Of a stretch of 64,000 bases of DNA, positions 12,921 to 55,673 are shown one piece after another. Positions within the stretch are counted from its first letter, which is position 1. Each line of letters begins with the position of its first letter. The stretch comes from Halobacteriales archaeon YIM A00010 (GTDB taxonomy: Archaea > Halobacteriota > Halobacteria > Halobacteriales > Haloarculaceae), in the NCBI GenBank assembly GCA_025041175.1, contig JAKCFJ010000004.1, positions 558,001 to 622,000 on the forward strand, given 5' to 3'. The position numbers and the translations under genes were made by a program. Below the pieces are notes generated by a model. The model did no database searches. It saw only the letters and a list, made by a program, of their open reading frames with translations, and was not told the origin of the DNA.

Positions 12921-14012
12921 CTACTCACCCTCGTCGCCGACGTCCGCGCTCTCTCCGCTCTTCGTTTCGGTTTCGCCCCAGTCGAGGTCGCGGGACCGGT
13001 CGGTCTCCCGGAGGATAAACGGCCCGATGGAGAGCGTGCGCTTCGCCACGGTGACGATGCGGAGAATGTAGGAGAATAGGAATGCGAACGGCAGCAGGGA
13101 GACGGCGACGCCCGCGCTCACCACCACGACGAGCGTGCGCACGCCGAACACGGTCCCCGGGAACAGCGCCGGTTCGAGGTAGATGACGCCCGCGACCGCC
13201 GTGAGGAGCGCGGGTATGGACGCGTACAGCATCGTCCGGGAGAGATCGATGAGCGCCCACTGGAAGTATAGCGTCTTGAAGTGCTCACGCGCCGGCCCGA
13301 ACAGTTCGAGTGCGTTGATGAGTTCGTCGAACGCGTGGTGCGCTTCCTCGGTGAGCACATCCCCGTTCTCTGCGCGGATGCGGCGCGCCGCGTACAACTT
13401 CCACGAGTAGTTGTAGTTCAGCGCGGAGAAGACCACGTCGAACTCGCCGAACTGGGAGCCTTCGAGATTGCTCTGGACGGCGTCCGCGTTCCCCTTCACG
13501 TTCTCTGTGAACGTGGCCACCTGGTCGTTCAGGGTGCCGTCGTCGATGTCCGCGATGGCGTCCTGGAGGGCGTCCGTGTGGCGCTTCGTGAGTTTCACGA
13601 GCGATCGCAGGAACGCTGACGGCTGGGCGGGACTCACGGGCTCCTCGATGACGTCCTCGACGTCCTTCCGGAACGTCATCGCGCCCTCCATGCGCTCGCG
13701 CTGGTCCCCGACCGGCCCCTGCTCCTGGGAGAGCACGAGCTGGCTGAGCGTAAGCACGAGCGTGACGCCCGTGATGATGGATGTGAGCAGCCCCTGGAAT
13801 AGCGTCTCGATGGGGTCCGCCTGGCTGAACAGCGCCGGTGGCCCAATCGGGTGGAGTTGCCCGATGATGGCGAGCGCGAGGAACACGCCGCCCGAGATCC
13901 CGGCGGCGACCAGCCACCGGTTCGCGTTCAACAGTAGCCAGAACTTCCGACTGTTCTCCGGCACGCGCTCCCGCATCGTGTCGCTCGGGCGACTTCCCTC
14001 ACTGTCGCTCAT
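12921..14012 (-). CDS. Haloarchaeal four-TM membrane protein of unknown function
   Basis: 363 residues from ATG at 14012. Two membrane helices lie near residues 30-110, a long soluble segment with coiled-coil-like composition follows, and two more helices lie near residues 255-325, with an acidic tail. The open frame extends upstream to 14639, but that part is antisense to a transposase fragment, so I reject it as coding. The name and role are unknown; a structural or stress membrane function is possible. Confidence 0.75.
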   Translation of the reverse strand: MSDSEGSRPSDTMRERVPENSRKFWLLLNANRWLVAAGISGGVFLALAIIGQLHPIGPPALFSQADPIETLFQGLLTSIITGVTLVLTLSQLVLSQEQGPVGDQRERMEGAMTFRKDVEDVIEEPVSPAQPSAFLRSLVKLTKRHTDALQDAIADIDDGTLNDQVATFTENVKGNADAVQSNLEGSQFGEFDVVFSALNYNYSWKLYAARRIRAENGDVLTEEAHHAFDELINALELFGPAREHFKTLYFQWALIDLSRTMLYASIPALLTAVAGVIYLEPALFPGTVFGVRTLVVVVSAGVAVSLLPFAFLFSYILRIVTVAKRTLSIGPFILRETDRSRDLDWGETETKSGESADVGDEGE

Positions 14013-14114
14013 ACCAGCCGTATTCCGCTCACGATTGAAAATACTGACTGCTGAATTCGGGTGGCGAGACGGGAATAGTCGAATTCTTGGGTATGTTGAA
14101 CCCAGACTCACGTA

Positions 14115-14575
14115 GTGCCTCCGAGTCATGAATCTCGACGCACGGTGTTTCAGCAAATCGCGCGACAATCGTACGCTGATTGGCCCGCGTATGATTCGAC
14201 CCCGTTGTACGATCGAACCTCGCTCGCTGGGCTGGAATCGGATATTCGCGTTGTCTCGGAGACGTGGTTCAAACACGACGCTCATGACTCGGTCGAGCAG
14301 TTCGTCTGTTCGCTTCCACTGGCCTACTTCATTTTCGGCGCACACGACCGCTATGCGAGTTCCACACGCTACGGTATGGACACCCTCTTTCAGGTGTTCG
14401 TACTGAAAGAACTCCACGGGTGGGAGCATGAAACCGCACTCGTTGACTACTTCAACCACCGCTCTGAACTCTGCGAGCAACTGGGTTTCGAGACGATTCC
14501 AGACCAGTCGACGCTGTGGCGCAGCTGGCACGAGCGTTTCACCGCTGACCTCCGAGAGACAATCGAGGCGGCCGC
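14115..14575 (+). pseudogene. IS4-like transposase N-terminal fragment
   Basis: A GTG-started frame contains LAYFIFGAHDRYASSTRYGMD, read in pieces, and GFETIPDQSTLWRSWHERF, the N-terminal region of the long IS4-like transposases (compare the element at 2300-4324). It ends near residue 155 with no DDE residues. It meets a minus-strand fragment of another gene at about 14575. Confidence 0.8.
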
Positions 14576-14639
14576 TCGAACGATCCTCCTTAACGAACGC
14601 TCGATACTCCTGCGACGGGTTGCGATTAAAGCGGCTCAT
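14575..14639 (-). pseudogene. 5' fragment of the MSRFN-family gene
   Basis: The minus strand from 14639 reads MSRFNRNPSQEYRAFVKE, clearly related to the start of the intact protein at 49824 (MSRFNSNPSPEYRAFVET). Its ATG overlaps the TGA of the upstream serine recombinase, as the intact copy overlaps an integrase. The remainder was lost where the transposase fragment was joined. Confidence 0.7.
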
Positions 14640-15448
14640 ACGTGTTCATCTCGCTTCGTTTCGGTATCGACCTCTTCGCGGACGACAGTCCGAATACGCT
14701 CCTCGAAGCCCTCGGGGAGATCGACAGCATCGATGTCAGCCTCCTCGAGTGCGTCGGCCACCCGGTCGTCGTCCGTTTCCACGTCGACGTAGAGGGCGAG
14801 TCGATCATCATCGTCGAGGATGCGGGTGAGCGTCCATCGACTGATTCCGGTGCTCTGAGCGACGGCATACGCGGACTCGCCGTCGAGGACCCGCTCGATG
14901 GCGGCTTGGACCTGAAGGAACTCCCCGATGTTCGGGACGAGATAGCCGTCATCGTCGGTGGTGAAGCCTTTCGGCGGTCGGGTTGTCCATTTGCCCGACC
15001 GTTGCGCTTGCTTAATCCCGGATTTGATTCGGCGGATCGTTTGTTTACGTTCTTCTTCGTACCAGAGGGCGAGCTGCTTGGCGAAGAACGAGGACATGGG
15101 GTTGTCGGGATCGATCGCGTCGATCATGTCGTCAACGATGTAGATGGGGATCTCCTGGTCTTCGATACAGACATCGATGAACTCCGCAGCGACTGCTGTC
15201 CGGCGAGCGAGCCGTGAAATCTCGCTCATGCAGATGCAATCGTACTGGCCGTCTTTCACCGTCGTGAGCAGCTTCTGTAGCCCCTTCCGGCCGCCATTGG
15301 ACCCAGATCCCCGCTCGGAGTAGATGTCGATGTCATCGATCCCTGCGTCTTCGAGCCGGTCCCGACAGTCGTGGAGCTGTCGGGAGGGGTCTTGGAGATC
15401 CTCGGCTTCATCCGTACTCACTCTCGCGTAGATCGCTCCAGTAGCCAT
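14636..15448 (-). CDS. Serine recombinase (resolvase/invertase family)
   Basis: 270 residues. The N-terminal catalytic domain starts MATGAIYARVSTDEAEDLQD (Ser in YARVST) and has SEISRLARRTAVAAEF, with the catalytic Arg pair. The mid helix has EEERKQTIRRIKSGIKQAQR, followed by a GKWTTRPPKGF linker and a C-terminal HTH (AYAVAQSTGISRWTL). A perfect palindrome about 50 bases upstream could be its resolution site or operator. It is followed with ATGA overlap by the MSRFN gene fragment. Confidence 0.9.
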   Translation of the reverse strand: MATGAIYARVSTDEAEDLQDPSRQLHDCRDRLEDAGIDDIDIYSERGSGSNGGRKGLQKLLTTVKDGQYDCICMSEISRLARRTAVAAEFIDVCIEDQEIPIYIVDDMIDAIDPDNPMSSFFAKQLALWYEEERKQTIRRIKSGIKQAQRSGKWTTRPPKGFTTDDDGYLVPNIGEFLQVQAAIERVLDGESAYAVAQSTGISRWTLTRILDDDDRLALYVDVETDDDRVADALEEADIDAVDLPEGFEERIRTVVREEVDTETKRDEHV

Positions 15449-46685: not shown

Positions 46686-47463
46686 GACGCTCGGGCAGGA
46701 TGAGCCACGGCTGGCAATCGTCGGCGCGATTCACGGCGACGAACCGTGTGGCGCACACGCGATCGAAACCCTGCTCGACGCGGACCCGGATGTTACCCGG
46801 CCGGTGAAATGCATCACGGTCAACGAGCGGGCGCTCGCCCGGAACATGCGCTACACCGAGAGGGATCTGAACCGGGTGTTTCCCGGCGATCCCGACGCCG
46901 ACGCCTATGAAACGCGGCTGGCCCACGAACTGTTGGAAGAGCTACACGGGTGTATAACGCTCTCGATGCATTCGACCCAATCGGACGAGCGACCGTTCGC
47001 CCTTGTCAACACGGTTGGGTCGCTTGCGATGGGGATCTGTCCGTATCTCTCAGTGGTGGGGGTTATCGAGACGGGCGAGCTCATCGGGCAGTCGTTAGTC
47101 GATCACACCCCCGTGATCGACGTTGAATGTGGGCTGCAAGGGACTGACCAGGCGGCGGCAAACGCAGTGCAGCTTGTGCGGGAATTCCTTGCTGTTACGG
47201 GCGCACTCCCGGACATGTCTGTCGAACAGCACCGACTCCATGTCTATCGGTTGTGTGAACGCATCCCGAAGCAGAGACCGGGGGACTGTGACGTGCTCGT
47301 TAAGAATTTCGAACCCGTGCCTGCTGGGACGCCGTATGCATCCATCGACAACCACGTGTTGGTCGCAGAGGACTCGTTTCATCCGGTGTTGCTGTCGGCC
47401 TCCGGCTATGAATCACAGTTTGGCTATGCTGCCGAATTGATCGGCACCCTTGGTCACGACTGA
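46666..47463 (+). CDS. Succinylglutamate desuccinylase/aspartoacylase family protein
   Basis: 265 residues. The zinc site is visible as VGAIHGDEPCGAHAIE (HxxE) and LSMHSTQSDERPF (third His). RDLNRVFPGDP is the substrate-binding N-R pair. It would deacylate an N-acyl amino acid or a similar small molecule. It overlaps both neighbours: the tandem-repeat gene upstream and, by one base, the TFB fragment downstream. Confidence 0.9.
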   Translation: MMEMRVETLGQDEPRLAIVGAIHGDEPCGAHAIETLLDADPDVTRPVKCITVNERALARNMRYTERDLNRVFPGDPDADAYETRLAHELLEELHGCITLSMHSTQSDERPFALVNTVGSLAMGICPYLSVVGVIETGELIGQSLVDHTPVIDVECGLQGTDQAAANAVQLVREFLAVTGALPDMSVEQHRLHVYRLCERIPKQRPGDCDVLVKNFEPVPAGTPYASIDNHVLVAEDSFHPVLLSASGYESQFGYAAELIGTLGHD

Positions 47464-47662
47464 TGTCCCGACAAACTACACTTGCTCAGACCGACCGCCT
47501 GCTGGATGGATATCCGGAGTGCAACGGTCGGATCAAGCACGATCCGAAACGCGGTGAGAGGACGTGTGGAGAATGTGGGATGGTTCTCTCCGAAGAGGCG
47601 ATCGATCACGGGCCGGAATGGCGAGCGTTCGACGCCCAGGAACAAGAGGAGAAGAGCAGGCG
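47463..47662 (+). pseudogene. tfb: TFB N-terminal zinc-ribbon fragment
   Basis: MSRQTTLAQTDRLLDGYPEC, NGRIKHDPKRGERTCGECGM and EEAIDHGPEWRAFDAQEQEE form the TFB zinc ribbon and B-finger region. The first Cys pair reads YPEC rather than CPEC, so one ligand may be missing. The frame leaves TFB sequence after KSRR, where an IS630 fragment begins. Confidence 0.88.
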
Positions 47663-47842
47663 AAGCGTCCAGCAGTGTCGGCCGTCAGGCGGGTCGCTAC
47701 AGGCGAGTGCGATGAGGTGGGCTTCATCGTCGCCGTCGAGTTTGCGTTCGTAATCTCGGTCGGGGTTGCGGCGGTGAACCGCCCAATCCCTTGCTCAGCG
47801 TAGCGTTTCCGTGCGCGATAGGATGTCGAGATACTACACTCA
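47662..47842 (-). pseudogene. IS630-family transposase fragment
   Basis: The minus strand reads CSISTSYRARKRYAEQGIGR then, after a frameshift, HRRNPDRDYERKLDGDDEAH and LIALACSDPPDGRHCWT. This is the N-terminal/linker part of haloarchaeal IS630 transposases. It is bounded by the TFB break on one side and repeat J on the other. Confidence 0.75.
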
Positions 47843-48012: not shown

Positions 48013-48265
48013 TTATCGGCATCCTGTTTCTGGTCAGTCAAATCGGTGTCACCGGACTCGTCCGATGGGAATGATTTCTCATCGTCCTCCTCGGCGTCCG
48101 TTTCCTCGCTGGTATCGTCGGTATCACTGGATCCATCAGATTCATTCTCGTCAGGAACGGAGCCGTCCTGGGATTCATCGTCCCCCGGTTCGGTCTCCTC
48201 AAGTTCGTCCGATCCTGGTGGACAGAGGTACAGCTCGAGGGACGTATCCGCCTCGTCAATCGGAG
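48013..48265 (-). pseudogene. Ser/Asp/Glu-rich C-terminal fragment
   Basis: The minus strand reads APIDEADTSLELYLCPPGSD, then a run of acidic and Ser/Thr residues (DDTSEETDAEEDDEKSF) to a stop at DADNCP. This is a halophilic low-complexity tail. It is joined upstream to a resolvase fragment, so it has lost its own start. Native protein unknown. Confidence 0.5.
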
Positions 48266-48440
48266 CTGACGAGACAGATCCTGATCAGCGGTCGAAACCC
48301 GACAATAGAGTGAAGTTATTCTGATGTTTGTCCCACTTTGTGGCACCCCCAATGACTTAAAGTCACCCCCTTTGAGCAGTCTGCTCAGAACCGATAGTTT
48401 TCCGCCAGACTGGCGTAAAACTACACCTTCTCACCATGGG
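48266..48440 (-). pseudogene. Resolvase start and upstream site, duplicate of 44.1-44.3 kb
   Basis: SLYCRVSTADQDLSRQ on the minus strand matches the resolvase at 44181. Its upstream DNA, including CGCCAG-A-CTGGCG at 48403, copies the 44233 site, and a second palindrome GAGCAG-T-CTGCTC lies at 48374. Only about 20 codons of the gene remain. Confidence 0.8.
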
Positions 48441-48893
48441 AATAGTCAACAAGGCCGGAACTGATATCTGCCGAGTGAACATCATCAGTGAATATCCGCC
48501 CCTCATTTCACCACCGGCTGTTATCCCACGTATTGGAATCAATTCGAATCTGTGGAGTAACGACGAAATCCCCCGAGCGAGCCGTCTCCCGCTCGAGACA
48601 GCGAGGAGACCAGCATCCAGTTGTCTCACACAGTCCCAGCCCCCCAACAGTGATCACATATAAATGTATTGTTTCAAATATAAACAGAACATGTCTATAT
48701 AAATATACGATAAACATGTGAGACAGCTATCCATTCGAACTGAAATGGAAATGTTTAAATCATATATCGCTGAATTGTGTCTTGCTGCGATGGGTTCGCG
48801 CCACCGACAGCTTCCCTAGGGAGGACACGTGGCTGGCGGTGATGGTCCATGCTCCCATCTAGCACGACAACGACACAAAATACACACATACAC
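48441..48893. other. Gap without recognisable gene
   Basis: It holds the 48535-48571 block that is inverted relative to 44630, and AT-rich sequence at 48655-48770. I see no gene. Confidence 0.5.
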
Positions 48894-49127
48894 ATGGCAC
48901 GATCACTACAGATTGCGATGGCGGCTCTTATGCTCCTGAGCGTCACGCTGGCTGGCGCAGGCACCGTAGCAGCGACCTGTACAGACGACACCTGTGAGAA
49001 ACACACCGACATTGATAACGATGGGATTGACATCGATGACTCCTCCAACACCGTCATCGATGACAGTGAGGACAACGACGTTGTCGATATGAGCGACTTC
49101 CTCACCCTCGGTCTGGATCTCCAGTAA
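48894..49127 (+). CDS. Small secreted acidic protein
   Basis: 77 residues from MARSLQIAMAALMLLSVTLA. A Sec-type signal peptide ends near TVAATC. The mature part is about 49 residues, with two Cys (CTDDTC) and many Asp, including DNDGIDIDD and DDSEDNDVVD. A T-run follows the stop. It resembles no family I know; a secreted peptide or metal binder is possible. Confidence 0.6.
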   Translation: MARSLQIAMAALMLLSVTLAGAGTVAATCTDDTCEKHTDIDNDGIDIDDSSNTVIDDSEDNDVVDMSDFLTLGLDLQ

Positions 49128-49142
49128 CGACAACCGACACAC

Positions 49143-49160
49143 ACGTACTCTTTTTTTTGT
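49143..49160 (+). terminator. T-rich transcription terminator
   Basis: CGTACTCTTTTTTTTGTGG, with eight T, lies about 20 bases after the secreted-protein stop, as expected for archaeal termination. Confidence 0.5.
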
Positions 49161-49339
49161 GGACGGTGAGTGTCGCACGTTTGGTACCGAGCAGTGAGAT
49201 AGATCGAGACAGGAGGGCAAGAGAGAGGATGAAGTTGGTAACCCCAGCCTCCCACATACCAATACCCATCACTGAGTACCGACGACTCGACACCGATCTG
49301 TCGATCCCCACACACCCACGACGACCAGGAGCGATAAAA

Positions 49340-49827
49340 CCGTATGGGAAGATCTAATCCTGATATGAGCGATTCATTGAGCCGCGACATATCTCGCGCA
49401 TGAACGACGGCACCCACCACTCGCTGGAGGTCGTCGGGGCACGGACACGACCGGCGAGCACACAGATGGGAAACATCGCGAGACCTGGCTCCCCGTCGAG
49501 CTCGAACGAACCATCAACCGGTACGTGCAGCACGAGGCGATCGAGCGGGACGAGCCGCTCATCGATCGATCGAAGCGAACGCTGCAGTACTGGGTCGAAC
49601 ACGCAGCCGAGGCGGCGGCTTCGGAAACCGGCGATGGCGACTATCGACGCGTCACGTCGCACGATCTCCGGCGCTGCTGGGCCAATCACTTACTCGTCGA
49701 GGAGGGGATCAGCCCGCGGATCGTCATGGCGCTCGGTGGGTGGAGCTCCTATGACGCGATCGAGCCGTATCTCGCGGCACCCACCGAGGAGAACATCATC
49801 GATTCCATGAGCAATATCGCCCTATGA
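49340..49827 (+). pseudogene. Tyrosine recombinase (integrase) C-terminal part, 5' degraded
   Basis: The intact frame from about 49525 reads DEPLIDRSKRTLQYWVEHAA, RRVTSHDLRRCWANHLLVEE and PRIVMALGGWSSYDAIEPYL. It includes the HxxR pair and the C-terminal Tyr of XerC/D-type enzymes. Upstream DNA (49400-49520) is homologous to the integrase piece at 55.4 kb but out of frame. The stop overlaps the MSRFN gene start (ATGA). Confidence 0.82.
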
Positions 49828-50366
49828 GCCGATTTAACTCCAACCCGTCACCCGAGTATCGTGCCTTCGTTGAGACCGTCCGAGAGTACGCCGACGGCGA
49901 CCAGGAGCCTGGAGAGGGGGTTCGTCGGGCGATTGCTGATGCGCTCTCCGATGAGCTGCGCGAGCGATTCAAGGCTGCATGGAAGGTCGATAGAACAGTC
50001 GACACCGTATGCGTTCGAAGGCTGATCACTGGGGAAGACGAGTGCAATTGCGATCGGTCATGGATCGATGGTGAGCGCGAAACAGTGGGAGAGGGCGATA
50101 AACTACCACACAAACCACCTCACGCCGTCCATTCGACGCTCTGGCTTGACGAGGACGACGAACCCGCCGTCTATTCGATGCACGTGTATCATCCCGAGAT
50201 TCAGATGGTCTCGGAGACAGCAGACCCAGACCAGCGCCAGCGAAACGGCTGGTTCGACATCGTTCGCTGTGCTGAACATTGGGGGCTTGAAATCGCCGTC
50301 ATGCCGACCTCGTGGCACATCGCTTTCTCAACCATCAACATCGTTGTCTATCCGCCTGAACAGTGA
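49824..50366 (+). CDS. MSRFN-family protein, recombinase-linked, unknown
   Basis: 180 residues. It starts MSRFNSNPSPEYRAFVETVR and has a middle CNCDRSWIDGE and a C-terminal DIVRCAEHWGLEIAVMPTSW. No known domain recognised. Its start overlaps an integrase stop. The truncated relative at 14639 overlaps a serine recombinase stop in the same ATGA way, so the family seems to travel with recombinases. Confidence 0.7.
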   Translation: MSRFNSNPSPEYRAFVETVREYADGDQEPGEGVRRAIADALSDELRERFKAAWKVDRTVDTVCVRRLITGEDECNCDRSWIDGERETVGEGDKLPHKPPHAVHSTLWLDEDDEPAVYSMHVYHPEIQMVSETADPDQRQRNGWFDIVRCAEHWGLEIAVMPTSWHIAFSTINIVVYPPEQ

Positions 50367-50498
50367 CCCACTACCGCGTCCGATGCTATTGGAGATATGC
50401 AACCCCGACACCCCATCTGCGAAATGAAAATCCAGCCGGCGTGCGTTGTGAGGGTGGCCATCTATAGGTGCTGAACACGAGAAAGAACATAGCATCCC

Positions 50499-51230
50499 AT
50501 GGCTGTCGGTCACCCCTCTACATTTCCGGTCGAAACGATCACGGCAGACCAACGACAGGCGTTGCGACAGTATATCACAGAACGCCAAGAGAGCGAGATG
50601 GGATTACGTGAACCAGTGTGGCTGGCTCTCGTCATCAACGGCGAGAAACCGGCGTGTTACGCCAATCAAGGGCTTGGCTCATCCCCATTGATCACGGATG
50701 GATGGACGGACGAGCTCGCCGGGCAAGCCGTCCCCCCAGAGATGGAGATCGACGTGGTACCCCTGGAAGAAACAACCCCAGACATCACTGTCGCGGACGT
50801 ACTCGATGCGTTCGGTCTCTCCTATCGGGGGTTGGGCGGCGCAGGCTGGTACGTCGCCCGGACCGCGTGGCGATTGGAGCTGCTCCCGACAGTTCGCAAT
50901 GGCGCGACAGCGGCCTATCATCGCCGACTGGGCGCGTTCTTTGGCTATGCACGAGCCGATATCAACTACTTCATCACGTCAGAGCCACCACGACCGCAAC
51001 CGGCGGCCCTCGTTGCTGACGGCCACTATACGCCCGAGGAGATCGCGTACACCACGTTCGTGCCTGAGATCTTCGAGCCGGAGCCTGAGCGGGTGGCGCG
51101 GGCCACACGAACTGGCCGCACGATCCGCGACCGGATGGCGCAGCTAGCCCGCCAGTGGGAGCTTCCTGCCCTTGAGGATCTCGCTGCAACGGTCTACGAG
51201 GAGGCCGTCAGCGACTGCCGGGACGACTGA
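50499..51230 (+). CDS. 240-aa protein of unknown family, paralogue 1
   Basis: 243 residues. Its landmarks, shared with 54058-54777, are TADQRQALRQYITERQESEM, WLALVINGEKPACY, AAYHRRLGAFFGYARADINY, YTPEEIAYTTFVPEIF and LARQWELPALEDLAATVYEE. It is predicted alpha/beta and soluble. A small zinc-ribbon gene lies convergent with overlapping 3' end, as for the other paralogue. Function unknown. Confidence 0.75.
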   Translation: MAVGHPSTFPVETITADQRQALRQYITERQESEMGLREPVWLALVINGEKPACYANQGLGSSPLITDGWTDELAGQAVPPEMEIDVVPLEETTPDITVADVLDAFGLSYRGLGGAGWYVARTAWRLELLPTVRNGATAAYHRRLGAFFGYARADINYFITSEPPRPQPAALVADGHYTPEEIAYTTFVPEIFEPEPERVARATRTGRTIRDRMAQLARQWELPALEDLAATVYEEAVSDCRDD

Positions 51231-51344
51231 CCACAAGTCCATCTGGTGCCCGCACACCGGACAGACCGTCTCGCCGTTCTTCGCAAGGTCGACTGGCCCC
51301 TCAAACGGCCAATTATCACAATCGTTGTACATCCGTTTGACCAT
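51144..51344 (-). CDS. Small zinc-ribbon protein, convergent with paralogue 1
   Basis: From MVKRMYNDCDNWPFEGPVDL it continues NGETVCPVCGHQMDLWS. The form MVK...C..C......C.VCG..... parallels the 35-residue protein at 54774. Codons after about 51225 overlap the other gene's 3' end and may not be native. An ATG at 51383 would add 13 residues. Confidence 0.55.
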   Translation of the reverse strand: MVKRMYNDCDNWPFEGPVDLAKNGETVCPVCGHQMDLWSVVPAVADGLLVDRCSEILKGRKLPLAG

Positions 51345-55222: not shown

Positions 55223-55339
55223 CGACCGCTTCTCCGAGAGCAAACACGTAGCCGTTCGATCACCTAGGGCGGGATAGAGCCATGTCACGCACCGCCAACA
55301 CCGACATCTGCCACGGACTGCCAGCTCGTGGGACCGCGA

Positions 55340-55673
55340 GATCGCCATTCGATTAATGGGCGACTGTGGGCTCCGCGTCGCTGAGGTCCTCGATGTCTGT
55401 CCTGACCACATCTCACGGAGGAGTGACGGGCGGCACTACCGGCTGGAAGTCGTTGGCGGGAAGGACACCACCGGCGAGTACCTCGACGGCAAGCATCGAG
55501 AGACGTGGCTCCCGGTCGAGCTCGAACGAACCATCAATCGCTACATCCAGCACGAAGACATCAAGAGGGACGAGCCGCTCATCGATCGGTCGAAACGCAC
55601 GCTACAGCACTGAATCGAGGACGCGGCCGACGCGGCGGCTGAGGCGACCGGTGACGAGGACTATCGACGTTTC
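55340..55673 (+). pseudogene. Tyrosine recombinase N/mid fragment
   Basis: The frame reads WDREIAIRLMGDCGLRVAEV (first catalytic Arg region), YRLEVVGGKDTTGEYLDGKH, ETWLPVELERTINRYIQHED and DEPLIDRSKRTLQH, then TGA, then IEDAADAAAEATGDEDYRR. The C-terminal catalytic part is missing. It is a diverged copy of the 49.4 kb integrase, which keeps the opposite end. Confidence 0.82.

Follow-up and report, generated by a model that had tools for sequence, protein, structure and literature searches.

X, a protein family of haloarchaeal plasmids recurrently encoded behind tyrosine recombinases and a possible accessory of plasmid resolution or inheritance

Small genes that act beside an integrase are known in haloarchaea from the Natrinema virus SNJ2. 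In the available parts of the published accounts, IntSNJ2, Orf2 and Orf3 are described as co-transcribed, the small genes as raising recombination in vivo, and Orf2 (111 aa, with a coiled coil) and Orf3 (140 aa, MarR-like) as both encoded upstream of the integrase gene (PMC8371274, PMC13107129). One of these accounts also states, in the portion available, that archaea are without FtsK and that the control of their dimer resolution is open (PMC8371274).

The protein family dealt with here, called X, resembles Orf2 and Orf3 in its apparent operon layout with a haloarchaeal tyrosine recombinase, as judged from stop-start overlaps, but differs from them in its length (180-200 aa) and in the lack of any Pfam match to a MarR-like or coiled-coil domain; Orf2 and Orf3 are not reported, in the available parts of those accounts, to resemble X. 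The archaeal XerA/dif system of chromosome dimer resolution is comparable as regards recombinase homology and a presumed maintenance role, whereas the plasmid recombinases associated with X reach 33.3 bits or give no match with the XerA model, the cut-off of which is 220 bits, and no dif site has been identified for them. Finally, X adjoins a recombinase as the lambda Xis-type factors do, but it is larger, no DNA-binding domain is recognised in it, and many copies have no recombinase beside them. Two things make the system of interest, namely (i) X itself, as a protein family that is uncharacterised, under selection and linked, on the plasmids of haloarchaea, to tyrosine recombinases; and (ii) a small DUF5805/RHH-like partner, which is kept beside the recombinase of essentially all haloarchaeal genomes.

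The X copies of the window

The window, i.e. the whole stretch of 64,000 nucleotides that was analysed, corresponds to positions 558001-622000 of contig C4 of a 5.97-Mb haloarchaeal genome. Its X gene (MSRFN/DEYR family; 49824..50366, + strand) is an open frame of 180 aa with no match in Pfam, NCBIfam or PADLOC, and its ATG at 49824 sits within the stop of a tyrosine-recombinase frame ending at 49827 (ATGA), so that an overlap pointed out in an earlier note on this DNA is confirmed in the sequence. The identification of the upstream frame as a tyrosine recombinase was also borne out (Phage_integrase, E 5.7e-8, and DNA homology), but the gene (49382..49827, +) is a decayed copy of a single-domain recombinase, here termed TyrX, with the N-terminus missing and one frameshift, its stop overlapping the start of X by 4 nt. 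With respect to an intact homologue of 201 aa on contig C7, the in-frame alignment is limited to residues 73-201; DNA homology begins at approximately 49382, and earlier residues (MNDGTHHSLEVVG) are found further upstream in another frame. The unit in the window has probably decayed to the point of no longer being a working recombination unit.

Both the TyrX remnant and X are carried by a segment (48252..50359, +) that duplicates C4:211187-213228 with 88.7% identity and, therefore, the X loci of these two segments count as one event. The dN/dS of the window X is 0.19 with respect to its duplicate and 0.09 with respect to a copy on contig C6. Selection on it may be relaxing, since the Asp that nearly all copies have ahead of H103 is missing from it and the usual final Arg is replaced by Gln. 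An adjoining stretch (50292-51300, +) is 94% identical to C4:413098-414106, a place other than that duplicated in 48252-50359, which makes the X locus a mosaic of two repeats. A second decayed TyrX-type recombinase is found at 55284-55667 (+), where it matches residues 16-141, contains an internal stop and is not followed by X. A short, apparently truncated frame at 47463-47753 (+) has a start resembling, by eye, the zinc ribbon of archaeal transcription factor B. In genome G000, 16 matches to X are present, just 4 of which span at least 179 of the 180 residues, and the mostly fragmentary state of these matches indicates heavy decay of plasmid-derived DNA.

A truncated X of approximately 21 codons, recognised by sequence comparison, lies at 14577..14639 (-). 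Its ATG at 14639 is within the stop of a serine recombinase of 270 aa (14636..15448, -; Resolvase, E 9.3e-28), with a 4-nt overlap again of the form ATGA, as the earlier note had read it and as the sequence confirms; the N-termini of X and of the stub, MSRFNSNPSPEYRAFVE and MSRFNRNPSQEYRAFVKE, are homologous. The stub breaks off at an antisense, IS5-like transposase remnant that abuts it (14115..14580, +, right end approximate; DUF772, E 2.3e-4, below the cut-off). The serine recombinase looks intact and has close homologues at G000:C4 and G004:C36; because its tail, beside the stub, is unlike the tails of these two, the junction may be recent and accidental. On balance, an accidental junction produced by rearrangement is the probable explanation of this overlap, and it is compatible with any other reading of X: the tail differs among the three close copies, nothing but a stub of X remains, and no intact serine recombinase-X pair is found across 7 genomes of the genus, although the overlap does share its 4-nt ATGA form with the tyrosine cases. 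The claim that recombinases of unrelated chemistry share the gene comes down to this single serine recombinase, the X of which is truncated and which is the sole one of its kind seen in ATGA overlap with X. A 572-aa open frame (12921-14639, -) runs from the start of the stub, antisense through the IS5-like remnant, into what appears to be a separate membrane protein, and could be annotated as one chimeric gene.

The X family and its neighbourhoods

Of the 146 genomes searched in the family, 19 contain relatives of X, as do 14 of 170 and 4 of 125 genomes of two further families, 29 of the 392 genomes of the order sample, and 22/292 of a class sample that overlaps all of these sets; 11 of 72,556 plasmid records also contain one. 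On sequence grounds, X is an undescribed haloarchaeal plasmid family under purifying selection, with dN/dS values of 0.04-0.32 in all 13 pairs compared. None of 19 aligned sequences gives a convincing match in Pfam, NCBIfam, PADLOC or the PDB, and no title or abstract opening describing the family was found in the literature, which does not prove absence. Weak matches taken as chance are those to a HicB-like PHROG (E 0.0025, 2/19 sequences), to DUF2267 (3/19 sequences) and to troponin C in the PDB (E 0.14 and worse). Among the positions conserved in X are C63, C74, H96, H120, W143/W153 and, nearly so, H103, and X may be a metal-binding protein, the conserved Cys and His forming the putative site. 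An AlphaFold model made from 3 sequences reached a pLDDT of 41.5. A viral origin was considered and rejected, given 0 matches in a phage collection and, in IMG/VR, a single contig with no recombinase adjoining X.

How regularly X accompanies recombinases was counted over 59 places retaining its N-terminus, an upstream recombinase being defined as a match on the same strand ending from -30 to 260 nt before X. Such a recombinase precedes 20 of the 59 places, as opposed to 7 of 714 other genes of the same loci, predicted by an ORF heuristic, so that the rate for X is about 33 times that of its neighbours; the X side of this comparison drops just L065, and the Fisher test treats as independent loci on related plasmids, which are not. 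Counted among the 59 places are L065, which duplicates L064 on one contig, and L068, which comes from a different genome than the identical L067; L090 and L092-L094 are omitted as repeats. Fifteen of the 20 recombinases are of the TyrA type described below (one a same-contig copy and one, L102, a remnant), 3 are TyrX and 2 are serine recombinases, namely that of the window stub (gap 0) and that of L073 (gap of 186 nt, in which a short TyrX tail lies).

The earlier note had taken as refuting a survey in which the family usually lies away from recombinases. By number this is partly the case, no recombinase being detected within 260 nt upstream in 39 of the 59 places, but the association is clearly in excess of background. 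The tblastn references were drawn from these loci themselves, a design that may overlook recombinases of unrelated type, and the class of 39 includes L071, the short TyrX tail of which is visible in DNA only. Eleven of the 39 belong to the Haloarcula lineage, where PCNA_N scores above its cut-off and 10 loci have the order PCNA, 87-aa gene, X and ArdC-like gene, the eleventh (L074) being broken. The position of X between PCNA and ArdC-like genes on plasmids of Haloarcula, near RelE/ParE-VapB in Halocatena and near ParA in Natrinema agrees with X being an independent gene for plasmid maintenance or establishment (e.g. in anti-restriction, copy control or as a partition aid), a reading to which we give tentative credit; the 33-fold excess of recombinases over neighbouring genes argues against it. 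In Halocatena and Salinibaculum, a fifth tyrosine recombinase, of small size, is represented at X by remnants of its tail.

The plasmid operon and its exchangeable recombinases

X can be viewed as a candidate backbone gene of haloarchaeal plasmids, and the recurrent third gene of an operon with the order small DUF5805/RHH-like gene, tyrosine recombinase and X, often then followed by ParA. The recombinases, called TyrA, form four subfamilies, mostly 25-30% (24-32%) identical to one another; in 7 TyrA sequences the columns of R161, K224, H299, R302 and Y346, which we take to be the catalytic residues, are invariant and conform to the R...K...HxxR...Y pattern, and 1 of 4 scanned recombinases passes the Pfam Phage_integrase cut-off. 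That different recombinases share X, as earlier proposed, therefore holds among tyrosine recombinases, four subfamilies being found in intact operons of other genera and the fifth as tail remnants. A small gene precedes most TyrA recombinases; before TyrA1 it encodes a DUF5805 protein (E 3.1e-9), a family on which a literature search found no paper, and before the other subfamilies its product is RHH-like by eye only. Stop-start overlaps of the form ATGA or ATGACTGA occur in seven loci, the recombinase and X overlapping by 8 nt in L051, L053, L101, L129 and L135 and by 4 nt in L052 and L103; in L100 the overlap is of 13 nt, with an alternative start that would give ATGA, and in L064 there is a gap of 38 nt. 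A ParA gene is found a short way downstream of X in L096, L100 and L101 and at a greater distance in L099, L103 and L129, and in L180 it directly follows the recombinase, with no X. Among the 15 best TyrA places in 392 genomes (at least 15 exist, up to four candidates having been scored per genome), X follows 10, two of which are copies on one contig, and 5 are without it; the cut of E 1e-98 was chosen after viewing the list, and adding the next place (G429, E 2.3e-83, no X) would give 10 of 16.

On the TyrA profile these 15 places (E <= 6.4e-99) stand apart from a wider class with E values from 2.3e-83 upwards, here called the broad class, and matches, the 15 included, are present in 378 of the 392 genomes and in 345/345 good ones. 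All 17 loci inspected, 16 of the broad class together with L152 (L152-L168), have upstream a small gene that is a relative of the DUF5805/RHH-like one; X was not detected in any of these 17, and the C-termini of the broad-class recombinases are plainly alike. Because their closest kin are present throughout essentially all haloarchaeal genomes and have a related small gene as partner, we infer from homology a Xer-like maintenance role, the resolution of plasmid multimers, for the TyrA recombinases. With the XerA model NF040815, the widespread haloarchaeal homologue scores 113.4 bits, TyrA1 33.3 and TyrX 29.8, TyrA2 giving no match, so that all recombinases scored stay below the 220-bit threshold. 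Seven of 8 stretches scanned upstream of operons contain no dif-like site, and the eighth, that of L129, holds an inverted repeat.

At the DNA level, the small gene-recombinase pair is shown to have been exchanged upstream of near-identical X. Between L103 (TyrA2) and L129 (TyrA1), identity is 88-92% over a stretch that begins at base 15 of X and extends almost 3 kb downstream, and approximately 77% ahead of the small gene, whereas blastn gives no match across the recombinases; L052 and L053, from one genome, give the same pattern (88% from base 6 of X). The X tree of the family omits L071 and L135 (X <150 aa) and L105 (X broken). On a tree of the 12 rows with a TyrA label, L105 and L135 again missing, a minimum of 7 changes of recombinase subfamily is required. 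Constraint to one clade is rejected in AU tests on these 12 rows, with p values of 1.7e-4 for TyrA1, 2.0e-5 for TyrA2 and 2.9e-3 for TyrA3, the groups being named by recombinase and not taken from the tree. Two histories fit, namely (i) repeated recruitment of recombinases before X; or (ii) an old operon in which recombination kept X homogeneous as the recombinases drifted apart. Under either history the link between X and the recombinase would be a lasting one, and neither proves a joint function.

The finding of close copies of X behind strongly differing recombinases suggests that X helps plasmid upkeep. The mechanism we tentatively favour on the comparative evidence, with somewhat less than even confidence, is that X, linked to the recombinase, is an accessory in the resolution or inheritance of plasmids: X would be co-translated with a recombinase that would resolve plasmid multimers in the manner of Xer, and would assist resolution or segregation independently of the recombinase's own DNA specificity. 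Nearly as likely, X is the independent maintenance gene introduced above, and its place behind recombinases would then reflect modular plasmid evolution, homologous recombination inside X swapping the upstream genes, as near-identical X with unrelated genes upstream would lead one to expect; yet each neighbour that has been swapped in is again a small gene with a tyrosine recombinase, in a coupled position. A more specific form of the accessory proposal, in which X is a recombinase-generic cofactor that is kept while the recombinase is swapped and that licenses or orients multimer resolution by tyrosine recombinases of widely differing sequence, as an archaeal counterpart of FtsK for Xer, we consider unlikely. 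That X is cargo tied to integration is possible.

A break of DNA homology at the start of X, seen in several pairs, could also arise if the att site of the recombinase were at or just past its 3' end, X being then the gene met first beyond the junction and sharing a transcript with the recombinase only when the plasmid is circular; a precedent is offered by SNJ2, for which the available part of one account describes excision as forming an operon that contains the integrase gene (PMC13107129). This arrangement is improbable, being weakened by the adjacency of recombinase and X on a single 3.3-Mb contig of G296 (L105); a recombinase remnant and X are likewise adjacent on a 3.0-Mb contig of G148 (L102), and none of 13 loci has a tRNA near the operon, so that no tRNA attachment site is seen there.

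Recombination directionality factors are small DNA-binding proteins, usually of the HTH type, and the coupling of X to recombinases had led the earlier note to suggest such a function. The suggestion fares poorly and we regard it as very improbable: no DNA-binding family is recognisable in the 180-200 aa of the 19 X proteins, the recombinase is often absent, and the small upstream gene, which is retained beside the widespread homologue, is a better candidate. According to the available part of one account, the archaeal integrases described to date function with no such factor (PMC8371274).

In L130, the RHH-like gene, TyrA2 and X are carried by a sequence that closes, through a terminal overlap of 55 nt, into a circle of 6,730 bp, the large protein of which is rolling-circle Rep-like by eye and has no Pfam match; a plasmid of 6.7 kb with the operon makes the question of X testable in a haloarchaeal laboratory host. 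A second small circular plasmid, that of L134 in G469 (8,284 bp), carries an X-like gene overlapping an 86-aa gene by 8 nt, with a tyrosine recombinase elsewhere on the same plasmid.
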